Source of the DNA: Actinomycetota bacterium
GTDB lineage: Bacteria; Actinomycetota; Acidimicrobiia; Acidimicrobiales; Microtrichaceae
Direction of reading: 5' to 3'
Assembly (NCBI GenBank): GCA_016870275.1
Contig: VGBZ01000001.1
Coordinates: 62,001 to 126,000, forward strand
DNA: 64,000 nt
The position numbers and the translations under genes are program-made. This document shows, piece after piece, positions 1-63,465 of this stretch (position 1 is the first letter of the stretch; each line of letters opens with the position of its first letter). The notes below the pieces were generated by a model, which worked only from the letters and a program-made list of their open reading frames with translations, did not search any database and was not told the DNA's origin.

Positions 1-348
1 CAGCACCTCACATCGGGTGGACACGCCATCATCCAGGCGTTCATCGCGGCACCGATCACCGAGCGGGAACGCAAGCTCGAGGTTCGCAGCGTCGATGCGT
101 CCGGTGTCACCCTCATCGCCACCGACGCGGATCCGCTCAGCGGGGCGGTCACCGGCGCCCACGTGGAGCTCATCGACGGCCTCCCGCCCAGGGTGCGTCC
201 GTGGAGGGTGGTCCCCGTGGCCATCGACGACCTCGACCGGTGGTTCAGCGACTGCGACATGGAGCTGCTCGGCCGGGACGGCGACTTCGACGGTTCACCG
301 TTCACGCCCTCGAGCGCCGGGTGTGTCAGTACCTACCGCTCCCCCTGA
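1..348 (+). CDS. C-terminal part of a protein of unknown function
   Basis: The reading frame is open from the first base of the window and ends with TGA at 346-348, giving the last 115 residues of a protein whose start lies outside. The fragment opens with QHLTSGGHAI and has an acidic middle section (VAIDDLDRWFSDCDMELLG). I see no membrane segment and no family motif I recognise. The frame has codon use like its neighbours, with G or C in nearly every third position, which supports it being coding. Its stop lies 36 bp from the stop of the convergent thioesterase gene. Confidence 0.6.
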   Translation, partial: QHLTSGGHAIIQAFIAAPITERERKLEVRSVDASGVTLIATDADPLSGAVTGAHVELIDGLPPRVRPWRVVPVAIDDLDRWFSDCDMELLGRDGDFDGSPFTPSSAGCVSTYRSP

Positions 349-55449: not shown

Positions 55450-57219
55450 TCAGCCGGGAACCCCTGGCGCCTTGGCGATCTCCGCCAGGAACACGTCGTT
55501 GTTGGGAAATGTCTTCATGCGGTCGATGAGCAACTCGAGCCCGGCACCGGGGTTGCCCTCGTTGGCCAGCCCGGAGAGAACCCGGCGGAGCTTCCAGACC
55601 TGCTGGAGCTGGTCCCGGTCGAACAACAGCTCCTCGTGGCGGGTCGAGGACGCATCGACGTCGATGGCCGGGTAGATGCGCTTCTCCGACGCCCGTCGGT
55701 CGAGTCGCAGTTCCATGTTGCCAGTGCCCTTGAACTCCTCGAAGATCACCTCGTCCATCTTCGAGCCGGTCTCGACGAGGGCAGTGGCGAGGATGGTGAG
55801 TGAACCACCCTCCTCGACGTTGCGGGCCGCGCCGAAGAATTTCTTGGGCGGGTACAGCGCCCCGGTGTCGATACCGCCGGACATGATGCGGCCGGTCGCC
55901 GGGGCCGCCAGGTTGTACGCCCGGGCGAGACGGGTGATTCCGTCGAGGATGATCACGACGTCCTGGCCGTCCTCCACGAGGCGCTTGGCTCGTTCGATCG
56001 CCATCTCGGCAACCTTCGTGTGTTCGTCCGACGGACGGTCGAAGGTCGAGGCAAGCACCTCGCCCCGAACGCACCGCCGCATGTCGGTGACCTCCTCGGG
56101 GCGTTCGTCGACGAGGAGGACCATGAGGTGCACCTCGGGGTTGTTGTGCTCGATCGACTGGGCGATCGTCTTCATCACCGTGGTCTTGCCGGCCTTCGGA
56201 GGCGAGACGATCAGTCCGCGTTGCCCCTTCCCGATGGGCGAGATCAGGTCGATGATCCGAGATGTCATGTCCAGAGGTTGATCGGCTCGTTCGAGCCGGA
56301 GCCTCGAGTCGGGGAACAGCGGAGTCAGATCCTCGAACCGGGGACGCCGACGGGCCTGCTCGGGGTCGATCCCGTTGACCGTGTCGATGCGCAGGAGCGC
56401 ACCGTTCTTCTCGTTACGGGTCGCTGGGCGACCGGCGCCACTGACGTGGTCACCCTTGCGCAGACCGAGCTGGCGCACCAGCTTCTGCGACACGTAGAGA
56501 TCGTCTCGATTCGGCAGGTACCCCTTGACCCGCAGGAAACCGAAGCCCTCGTCACGGAGGTCGAGGTGACCGTCGACCTCGATCGGCTCGCCGTCCCACT
56601 GTTGATCGGGCCCGTCCTCGGTGCGCTCACGGTCCCCGCCACGGTTGCGGCGCCGACCTCGACGACGACGGTTACCGGACTCAGGCCCGTCTCCGTCACC
56701 ACCCTGGCGATGGGAATCGGATCGCTGCTGCTGCTGGGGTTGAGAACCGGAGGATCCCGGGCGCTCGGCGGTGGTGGCGTCTGTACCACCGGCGGCCTCG
56801 GGACCTGCGGCCTCGGGACCTGCGGCCTCGGGACCTGCGGCCTCGGGACCTGCGGCCTCGGGACCTGCGGCCTCGGGACCTGCGGCCTCGGGACCTGCGG
56901 CATCGGGACCTGCGGCCTCGGCATCCTCAGCGGACGCCACGTCGGTCGATGGTGCGGCCGAGTGCTCTGCTGATGAGGCGCTCCCGTTGCGGCGTTCCGA
57001 GCCCGCTGTGGATGCTGCAGACCCGTTCGATCCGGACACCCCACCACCAGCGGAGTCATCTGCGAGGCCATCGGCTCCCACCAGTTCGAGAATCATGCCG
57101 ATGATGTCGGCCTTGCGGGTCCGACTCGTGGGCTTCGCTCCGAGCGTCTCGGCGATCTGGGCCAGTTCCGCCCGGTCCTTCCGCTCGAGGCTCTCGAGAT
57201 CAACTGCGTCGAGACTCAA
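55450..57219 (-). CDS. rho: Transcription termination factor Rho with low-complexity insert
   Basis: A hexameric RNA helicase that terminates transcription. The 589 residues start with a Rho N domain ([36 protein letters not shown]). About 170 residues of disordered, Ala/Gly/Pro/Glu- and then Arg-rich sequence follow, including eight AAGP(E/D) repeats. The RNA-binding OB fold ([22 protein letters not shown]) comes next, then the ATPase with P-loop [14 protein letters not shown] and Walker [15 protein letters not shown]. Long inserts of this kind occur in actinobacterial Rho. I chose the TTG at 57219 because AGGGAGA lies just upstream and the domain starts there. No ATG is close. Confidence 0.95.
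56794..56913 (-). repeat. 15-bp in-frame tandem repeat in rho encoding AAGPE
   Basis: Eight 15-bp units (plus strand GGCCTCGGGACCTGC) run without interruption. Seven are identical, and the one at 56899 has a single change (GGCATC, giving Asp). They encode consecutive AAGPE pentapeptides in the disordered insert of Rho, and can vary in number without frameshift. Confidence 0.93.
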
Positions 57220-57240
57220 CTGTCTCCCTTTCGCATCTGA

Positions 57241-57287
57241 CCACCCGGTCCCGGGTGGCAATTCTTCGATCCGATCGAGTCGGATCG
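57241..57287 (-). promoter_or_regulatory. Two tandem hairpins directly upstream of the rho start
   Basis: CCACCCGG-TC-CCGGGTGG (57241-57258, 8-bp stem) and CGATCCGA-TCGAG-TCGGATCG (57267-57287, 8-bp stem) are perfect. The first ends about 22 nt before the TTG start. They could regulate rho translation or act in feedback termination. Confidence 0.5.
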
Positions 57288-57381
57288 CCATGGCGTACCG
57301 GATCGTCATCGTTGGCGACCGGTGGAGGCTCCGCTCCGCCCCGCACTTCTGCCGGCCCACACGTTCGTGCCGGAGTGCACC

Positions 57382-57434
57382 GTGTGGTTGGTGAAGAGCG
57401 ACACGGTCCCGTCTGTTCTCGCCACCGACCACAC
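57382..57434 (-). promoter_or_regulatory. Long hairpin in the rho leader
   Basis: GTGTGGTTGGTG (57382-57393) pairs with CACCGACCACAC (57423-57434) over 12 positions with one G-T wobble, enclosing 29 nt that can pair further. With the two hairpins near the start codon it makes the 5' leader of rho strongly structured. The 392-bp gap 57220-57611 holds no convincing gene; a 71-codon frame (57306-57521) is discussed under rejected items. Confidence 0.45.
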
Positions 57435-57536
57435 CAACAGGTGAACGTGGTTGAAGCGAGAGGGACGGTCGAGGCCGGTACGACTGACGGTGTGGTTCAC
57501 CGCCGCCCATCGGCTCCGCATCGGAACAGCGAGCCA

Positions 57537-57565
57537 ACTCTAGATCAGCGAGCGGGTCGAGACAA
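57537..57565 (-). promoter_or_regulatory. Putative rho promoter
   Basis: On the minus strand TTGTCT (-35, 57560-57565) and TAGAGT (-10, 57537-57542) are separated by 17 bp. Transcription from here would give rho a leader of about 310 nt. Confidence 0.5.
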
Positions 57566-57611
57566 CCACCCTCTGGTCCAGCCCGGCCGAATCCGCTTCA
57601 CATCGCCCCGG

Positions 57612-59027
57612 TCAACCGAGTCGTTGACGAATGAGGTCCTCGAGGTCAGCGAGGTCCGCTTCGGCCCGTGCGATCCGTTCCGGCAGGTCGAACAGGTCAC
57701 CGAGTCGCTCCGGCAGCGCCGGTCGGATCCCGGTCGCCCCCTCGACGGCATCGGGGAACTTGGCCGGGTGGGCCGTCGCCAGGCAGACCACCGGGACCTC
57801 GGGATCCGACAGCGGCCCCCCGTCGGCGAGCTCCTCGGCCACGCCCAGGCCCACGGCCGTGTGCGGGTCGAGCAGCAGACCGGTCCGGTGGTGCACGTCC
57901 CGGATCACCCGTGCGGCCGACTCGTCGTCGAGCCGACCGCAGTCGAACTCGGAGCGCAGCGCGTCGAGCACGGCACCGGTGACCGACACGGCGCCCTCGC
58001 CCCGGAAGCGCCCCAACAGCTCGGCGACCGCCGGCCCGTCCCGGTCCAGGACCTCGAACAACAACCGCTCCAGGTTGGACGACACCTGGATGTCCATGGA
58101 CGGACTCGTCGTAGGGACCACCTCGGCGAGCGACATGGTGCCGGTCGTGAAGAACCGGGTCAGCACGTCGTTGCGGTTCGAGGCCACGACCAGGCGATCG
58201 ACCGGCAGTCCCCCACGGGCCGCCACCCAGCCGGCGAGCACGTTGCCGAAGTTGCCGGTCGGCACGACGAAGGAAACCGGTCCGTCGTCATCACGCACGG
58301 CGAGGTGGGCGGTGACGTAGTAGGTGATCTGCGCCATCACCCGGGCCCAGTTGATCGAGTTGATCGCAGCGAGGTGCACATCGTCTCGAAACGACGTGTC
58401 GGCGAATGCAGCCTTGACCAGGTCCTGACAGTCGTCGAAGGTCCCCGGGATCTCGACGGCGCAGAGGTTGGCGGCGGTGAGCGTGGTCATCTGACGTCGC
58501 TGGACCTCCGAGGTGCGACCGGCGGGGAAGAGGATGAACGCATCCACTCGATCCAGTCCGGCGCAGGCGTCCATGGCGGCAGATCCGGTGTCGCCCGAGG
58601 TCGCTCCGAGCACGCAGATCCGCTCGTTGCGCAGCGACAGCACGTGATCGAAGAGGCGCCCGACGAGTTGGAGCGCCACGTCTTTGAACGCCAGCGTCGG
58701 TCCCCGGTACAACTCGAGGAGGTGCAGTGGCGCCCCCGACGGAAGTGTCCCGATGGGAATCACGGGACAGACCTCTGGCACGTCGAAGGTGGCGTACGCC
58801 TCATCGACGATGCGCTCGTAGTCCAGACGTTCGATCGCTCCGTCGATGAAGGGCCACGTGACCGCCACTGCGATCTCGGCGAACGACCGCCCGCGCAGGT
58901 CGGCCAGCGGGGGCAGCACCGGCCAGGCCTCAGGAACGTAGAGCCCGCCGTCGCGGGCCAGGCCGTCGAGCAGGACATCGGCGAACGACCGCGGCTCGCC
59001 GCCACCCCTGGTCGAGACGTAACGCAC
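57612..59027 (-). CDS. thrC: Threonine synthase
   Basis: A PLP enzyme converting O-phosphohomoserine to threonine. The 471 residues begin with RYVSTRGGGEPRSFADVLLDGLARDGGLYVP, the typical ThrC opening. The PLP Lys is in RGPTLAFKDVALQL, the phosphate loop is in LGATSGDTGSAAM, and VPTGNFGNVLAGWVA is present. The long form with an N-terminal lid is present. It starts 1 bp after the hom stop, forming argS-lysA-hom-thrC. Confidence 0.96.
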   Translation of the reverse strand: MRYVSTRGGGEPRSFADVLLDGLARDGGLYVPEAWPVLPPLADLRGRSFAEIAVAVTWPFIDGAIERLDYERIVDEAYATFDVPEVCPVIPIGTLPSGAPLHLLELYRGPTLAFKDVALQLVGRLFDHVLSLRNERICVLGATSGDTGSAAMDACAGLDRVDAFILFPAGRTSEVQRRQMTTLTAANLCAVEIPGTFDDCQDLVKAAFADTSFRDDVHLAAINSINWARVMAQITYYVTAHLAVRDDDGPVSFVVPTGNFGNVLAGWVAARGGLPVDRLVVASNRNDVLTRFFTTGTMSLAEVVPTTSPSMDIQVSSNLERLLFEVLDRDGPAVAELLGRFRGEGAVSVTGAVLDALRSEFDCGRLDDESAARVIRDVHHRTGLLLDPHTAVGLGVAEELADGGPLSDPEVPVVCLATAHPAKFPDAVEGATGIRPALPERLGDLFDLPERIARAEADLADLEDLIRQRLG

Positions 59028-63390: not shown

Positions 63391-63465
63391 GCCCTCGTAG
63401 CTCAGGGGATAGAGCATCGGCCTCCGGAGCCGTGTGCGCAGGTTCGAATCCTGCCGAGGGCGCCA
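63391..63465 (+). tRNA. tRNA-Arg (anticodon CCG)
   Basis: A 75-nt cloverleaf with encoded CCA. The acceptor stem GCCCTCG pairs with CGAGGGC. The D-arm AGCTCAGGGGATAGAGC is present. The anticodon stem TCGGC/GCCG(T) encloses CTCCGGA, with anticodon CCG reading CGG. The T-arm is GCAGGTTCGAATCCTGC. All standard bases (TTCGA, discriminator G, CCA) are present. It lies between argS and kup. Confidence 0.97.

Follow-up and report, generated by a model that had tools for sequence, protein, structure and literature searches.

The rho gene, its promoter and its leader

The 64,000-nt stretch of DNA analysed here, referred to as the window, derives from an actinobacterial genome of the order Acidimicrobiales, family Microtrichaceae. 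Its minus strand carries hom, thrC, rho and rpmE in that order, and a gap of 392 nt separates thrC from rho. The features of the locus, in the direction of transcription, are as follows.

60345-59029, minus strand: hom, homoserine dehydrogenase (Pfam and NCBIfam)
59027-57612, minus strand: thrC (Pfam and NCBIfam)
57560-57565, minus strand: -35 box TTGTCT (GGTGGTTGTC exact in L009, L010, L011 and L032; CGGTTGCC at the same place in L015)
57537-57542, minus strand: -10 box TAGAGT, spacer 17 (kept in the genus; promoter-like pair common in the order)
57220-57530, minus strand: putative untranslated leader of ∼311 nt, its start placed near 57530 from the -10 box
57473-57515, minus strand: 5' element, a 43-nt hairpin (model match 57517-57471, 60.5 bits; pairing and covariation in the genus)
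57267-57287, minus strand: H2, a perfect 8-bp hairpin with a 5-nt loop (hairpin of at least 7 bp upstream of H1 in 4/5 genus leaders)
57241-57258, minus strand: H1, a hairpin whose end lies 21 nt ahead of the start codon (5/5 genus leaders, 35/35 cells paired)
57224-57228, minus strand: Shine-Dalgarno sequence GGGAG (sequence and relatives)
57211-57226, minus strand: possible small hairpin GAGAC/GUCUC, pairing the Shine-Dalgarno end with codons 2-3, TTG start in the loop
55450-57219, minus strand: rho, TTG start, 589 amino acids (TIGR00767, 571 bits; PF07497 and PF00006)
55332-55000, minus strand: rpmE (Pfam and NCBIfam)

The open frame of rho extends from the TTG upstream to 57537. In relatives, similarity of the Rho protein begins at a TTG or GTG in the same position, a Shine-Dalgarno sequence lies ahead of that codon, and no in-frame ORF upstream of it is conserved. 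For these reasons the TTG at 57219, the start proposed in the preliminary description, is taken as the start of rho and the stretch upstream of it as leader. The encoded protein has a long N-terminal insert, within which a 15-nt unit repeated 8.9 times with 97% matches (56788-56921) codes for an Ala-Ala-Gly-Pro-Glu repeat.

A TTGTCT-17-TAGAGT promoter had been proposed for rho, and both its letters and the distance of 318 nt from the end of the -10 box to the TTG were confirmed. A standard consensus promoter scan did not list the pair, as its boxes are far from TTGACA/TATAAT. Six genomes of the genus were available, one of which (66% complete) gave no rho match, and the promoter is kept in all five with a readable rho leader; their -10 boxes read TAGAGT, TACAGT, TACAGT, TAAGGT and TAGGGT, and the leaders range from 238 to 330 nt. 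On the strength of this conservation it is thus very probable that rho has a sigma-70-type promoter of its own and that its mRNA starts with a leader of ∼311 nt.

The order was sampled at two sizes, 148 and 397 genomes. Scanning 135 loci for the Rho N terminus gave 127 leaders, 26 from the family and 101 from elsewhere in the order; L023, L031, L036, L038, L047, L058 and L078 had no N-terminus match and L112 had no start. Outside the family, 99 of the order leaders were searched for a promoter-like pair (TTGNNN-16..19-TANNNT within 500 nt), L089 and L140 being left out as shorter than 480 nt. The pair stands on the sense strand in 72 of them and on the antisense strand in 8, and 30 shuffled sets had it in 13.6 leaders on average and in 19 at most. 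Measured from these pairs, the leaders have a median length of ∼204 nt, the 10th percentile being 138 nt and the 90th 303 nt. Within the family a promoter was assigned by eye in 23/26 leaders, which measure 152-330 nt; L014 was too short, and L029 and L030 were unclear. As judged from these predicted promoters, long leaders ahead of rho are therefore common in the order and no peculiarity of the window.

The predicted transcript start itself shows a pattern in some relatives. In seven leaders of four genera (L012, L016-L020 and L034) the sequence just after the -10 box is GUCGUC followed by GGCGGGGG, nearly unchanged. Over 85 leaders, counted after eleven near-duplicates had been dropped, GTCG occurs 32 times in the first 10 nt past the -10 box, versus ∼7 times per bin further on.

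The promoter-proximal 5' element

Alignment of the genus leaders revealed two near-perfectly conserved blocks, GCCGATGGGCGGCG and CCGTCWGTCGTACCGG, the latter having T as its first base in L010. Folded alone, each of the five genus sequences takes the same form, in which an outer helix P1 (57515-57511 with 57477-57473 in the window; GGCCG/CGGCC) and an inner helix P2 flank an internal loop, AUG/GUAC. The outermost P1 pair of the window is an A·C that does not form. P2 is built of GGC followed by GGCG and a variable arm, and contains a single bulge, either A or U. The internal loop and two G·U pairs are invariant in 5/5 genus leaders, and the variable arm switches from GGG/CCC to GUG/CAC and AUC/GAU.

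The pairing of the element holds in 94.1% of 85 cells, versus 28-55% in slid controls, and its covariation score, 0.235 versus 0.115 in shuffled alignments, was reached by 0/500 shuffles. Changes on both sides of a pair occur at four pairs, versus 2.0 in shuffles (36/500 reach four), and the count of further pair types, six versus 5.1, is not unusual (187/500). These values derive from five genomes, a small sample with some unavoidable relatedness. In each genome the element is also more stable than its own shuffles (z -2.2 to -3.2). It begins 20-22 nt past the -10 box in 5/5 genus leaders while leader length varies, and 223-314 nt from the start codon.

Within the full transcript the predicted folding of P1 differs between genomes. 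When the whole window leader is folded to minimum energy, P2 forms and P1 does not. With the outermost pair excluded, P1 of the window has predicted pair probabilities of 0.74-0.79 if the whole leader is folded and of 0.26-0.30 if the first 90 nt are taken, those of L011 are 0.36-0.47 and 0.67-0.87, respectively, and in L010, L032 and L015 they are at least 0.72 in both settings. Taken together, the comparative data support a promoter-proximal hairpin with a conserved internal loop in the rho leader, as predicted from sequence. The preliminary description had proposed a long structured leader ahead of rho without this element; the conservation of promoter and hairpins in relatives bears out such a leader, and the pairing-conservation test turned out favourably for the hairpin at 57515-57473, which is the strongest structure of the leader.

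The distribution of the element is narrow. A covariance model scored 60.5-73.5 bits in 5/5 genus leaders in a scan that took 64 sources rather than all loci. In the 397-genome order sample, scored with stricter filters, the four genus members included gave the same 60.5-73.5 bits, each with a single copy listed, located at rho; 11 further matches scored 23-31 bits (E 0.001-0.1 per genome), which is chance level. An exact motif scan of a collection of 84,980 species, covering contigs of 3,000 bases upward, found only four sister genomes (G001, G002, G004 and G005). By these searches only one genus has the 5' element, which is therefore not needed for rho control in general. Compared with Rfam, the segment 57190-57570 gave no match at the gathering score and six below it (best E 2.3), and the only match in the whole window was a tRNA at 63391-63462. 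The locus represents a structured rho leader, probably a regulatory device of an already known general kind, with an element matching no described RNA family.

Four genus members have thrC upstream of rho, whereas L015 has an apgM-like gene there, of which only the C-terminal piece is present, so that its score, 104.6 bits, lies under the family cut-off of 320. Promoter, 5' element and H1 are all present in L015 despite the different neighbour. To judge from these gene orders, the leader and its 5' element belong to rho, staying with it as the upstream gene changes.

Another genus of the family (g18; L024-L028 and L037) has a different long hairpin at the same promoter-proximal place. In this hairpin 99/100 cells are paired, with changes on one side only; among 5/6 leaders, L028 being left out as identical there to L026, no pair changes on both sides and shuffles perform equally well.

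Hairpins beside the ribosome site and other candidate pairings

Two perfect 8-bp repeats, at 57241-57258 and 57267-57287, had been described next to the ribosome site and are indeed present. As only 2 nt separate the arms of the first, it forms 7 bp with the loop GGAC as RNA. In their last 70 nt, none of 2000 dinucleotide shuffles contained at least two perfect Watson-Crick hairpins and 44/2000 contained at least one, by a criterion (at least 7 bp, loops of 3-6) set after the hairpins were seen.

Counts of hairpins by position, likewise designed after the hairpins had been seen and so partly after the fact, point in the same direction. Within -55..-10, hairpins of 7 bp or more occur in 5/5 genus leaders versus 0.4 expected (0/200 shuffle sets), corresponding to H1. 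In a non-redundant family set that includes the five genus leaders the count is 6/20 versus 0.8 expected, that is 1/15 among the others, and with 6 bp it is 10/20 versus 2.6; outside the family a 7-bp hairpin occurs there in 1/100 leaders versus 3.1 expected. When H1 is registered by structure, a procedure that leans towards the structure, 35/35 cells pair and 6/7 positions have both-side changes. The 3' end of H1 stays 17-22 nt from the start codon while its sequence changes freely. For H2, the 45 nt preceding H1 contain a hairpin of at least 7 bp in 4/5 genus leaders, L015 being the exception, versus a shuffle mean of 0.46 (0/500 sets). Leaders from outside the family are hairpin-rich in more distal segments too (for example -190..-145, at least 7 bp: 16/100 versus 5.5 in shuffles). 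In relatives the pairing test was favourable for the hairpins beside the ribosome site, H1 in 5/5 and the second in 4/5, and these data support two predicted hairpins directly upstream of the Shine-Dalgarno sequence whose pairing is conserved under free sequence change.

From the family, 20 or 21 leaders were chosen for each of the tests of H1 position, ribosome-site stability and the start-codon hairpin, and L089 was left out of all three. A small hairpin around the start codon gains weak support: 21 family pairs fold better than chimeras (9/300 chimera sets as low), the effect is not significant in the genus plus L012 (70/300), and 100 leaders from the rest of the order show none (80/300). 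A stability test of the ribosome-site region gave a weak result, with a mean Z of -1.06 in the family, -0.38 in the order and -0.57 for 22 window genes called by a crude rule. In L016, L018, L020 and L034, unlike the window's genus, the Shine-Dalgarno sequence GGAG immediately ahead of the rho start lies inside a 5-bp hairpin, CUCCG-loop-CGGAG.

Other pairings proposed for the leader fared less well. The complementarity of the 12-bp hairpin described at 57382-57393/57423-57434 requires a T·G on the plus strand, which is C·A in the sense transcript, such that 11/12 positions pair. It has no counterpart in the genus relatives: of its two arms, L010 and L032 keep only a block of the 3' one (CCACACGGTGC), there is no alignment at the site for L011 and L015, and the hairpins listed for these four leaders are different ones. 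With no paired counterpart in four relatives, it was rejected as a conserved part of the leader. Of the three leader copies claimed for GTGTGGTT, two are exact (57382 and 57490), while by inspection the third is an inverted near-copy with one mismatch. The whole window holds three exact copies versus a shuffle mean of 1.12, and 13/100 shuffles have at least three.

The leader as a whole (57190-57536) is not unusually stable (z -1.45; 6/100 shuffles fold at least as well). An alternative fold, in which the 3' side of the 5' element pairs with 57440-57428, was rejected, as the lists of hairpins for the other four genus leaders do not include it. When the 5' end was tested for duplexes with more distant parts of the leader, the energy was better than in shuffles (p<0.05) in 2/23 leaders (L024 and L033), and the window gave p 0.82. 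In one other genus (L016, L018 and L034), CCCCCGACGAC at about -70, near the ribosome site, is complementary to GUCGUC plus GGGGG at the predicted transcript start, the stretch that separates these two being bulged; this pairing is not significant by duplex energy.

Possible control of rho and known rho leaders

By analogy with other bacteria, autogenous control of rho is the most likely function of the leader, a reading held tentatively and with slightly less than even confidence; the feedback step, the roles of the hairpins and any ligand are all putative. The leader would act as a cis-acting control region that keeps the level of Rho in bounds by autogenous feedback, and, as it does in E. 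coli and B. subtilis, excess Rho would terminate transcription inside the untranslated rho leader. In this scheme the 5' hairpin may serve as a recognition or timing element, while the hairpins beside the ribosome site might keep that site open or tune its use.

A Rho-autoregulated leader of the E. coli type has a C-rich, G-poor Rho entry region. The window leader has a C versus G skew of -0.026, and its best 78-nt C-minus-G value, 12, is reached by 41% of random window segments; among 23 family leaders the bias of C over G is mixed. Actinobacterial Rho is extended at its N terminus by ∼150 residues, has an RNA-binding subdomain there and uses various RNAs (PMC4167861), for which reason an entry-site test based on C over G is weak in these bacteria. 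No terminator-like site, such as an intrinsic attenuator or a terminator-bearing riboswitch would have, was found in 57000-57800. Both results speak against autogenous control, the one on C over G weakly.

The leader could instead be a passive architecture, an unlikely though serious alternative in which the 5' hairpin guards the mRNA end from decay, the hairpins beside the ribosome site insulate it against the GC-rich leader, and nothing is sensed. The behaviour of H1, which keeps its pairing and the spacing of its 3' end to the start codon while its sequence changes freely, is what such a role would predict, as is the constant place of the 5' element near the predicted 5' end. Mere protection, however, would not need the invariant AUG/GUAC loop and two G·U pairs (5/5), which, coming from five genomes, are modest evidence.

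Somewhat less probable again is translational control, in which a protein or small molecule binding the 5' element or the H1 region would alter access to the Shine-Dalgarno sequence and start codon. The invariant internal loop and the possible family hairpin holding the Shine-Dalgarno end and the start codon speak for it. Against this, the chimera test of that hairpin is weak, the 5' element lies more than 200 nt from the start codon, and conserved long-range pairing was not found.

A more specific proposal, which we consider improbable, is that the 43-nt hairpin is a rho-specific RNA receptor whose AUG/GUAC loop would bind Rho, another protein or a cell signal as the leader emerges. Were that so, the 5' hairpin would set the amount of Rho and hence termination genome-wide.

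The constant distance to the -10 box might suggest that a transcription factor binds the conserved block as DNA beside the promoter, which is very unlikely as the half-sites GCCGATGGGCGGCG and CCGTCWGTCGTACCGG are variably spaced and the segment between them changes with compensation. The 5' element contains an invariant ATG, in frame with rho in the window, from which a leader peptide might be read; this was rejected as barely credible: by inspection, block spacing shifts the frame so that the same letters are read in three frames among the genomes, and no Shine-Dalgarno sequence precedes that ATG.

Autogenous control of rho, the preferred reading, has precedents. The preliminary description had pointed out that E. 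coli rho is autoregulated by attenuation in its leader, and this is stated, for E. coli and other bacteria, in passages of PMC6582626. It had also held that no analogous device was described for this lineage. That needs qualifying, in that a 257-nt rho 5' UTR is tabulated for M. tuberculosis and a Pseudomonas rho-leader RNA stands in Rfam; titles and abstract beginnings in the open-licence literature yielded no description of a structured rho leader in this lineage. In passages of PMC5379054 no mention of autoregulation was found, and those of PMC3890552 treat terminators only. Rho sets transcription termination genome-wide, and little on the control of its level in actinobacteria was found in the open-licence literature. 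A long rho leader in most of the order's genomes sampled, together with a genus-specific covarying hairpin, offers a small target for asking whether Rho autoregulation evolved lineage-specific RNA parts.

The window and E. coli share a long leader before rho, in the window with a promoter of its own predicted from conserved sequence, and by analogy negative feedback by Rho is expected; they differ in that passages of PMC6582626 describe no comparable RNA hairpin and in that the window leader is without an unusual C-rich stretch. In B. subtilis, rho is autoregulated by attenuation (passages of PMC12350095). The likeness here is control of rho by Rho in a Gram-positive bacterium, feedback in the window being putative.

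A cmscan of 57190-57570 with E up to 10 gave no match to RF01720, Pseudomon-Rho RNA. This RNA presumably lies in the rho leader, to judge from its name, and the window leader likewise stands ahead of rho, in a different lineage. It is an Rfam RNA of Pseudomonas rated as probably cis-regulatory (passages of PMC2864571).

M. tuberculosis is of the same phylum, and its rho gene (Rv1297) has a leader of similar length, the 5' UTR of 257 nt. No structure is described for it in passages of PMC3207917, and the window's 5' element is found only in another genus. According to Table 8 of that paper the ratio of UTR to coding-sequence read density is 2.3 in exponential phase, with more leader than coding reads, and 0.3 in stationary phase, a value bracketed there as low-count. 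The exponential value is compatible with early termination.
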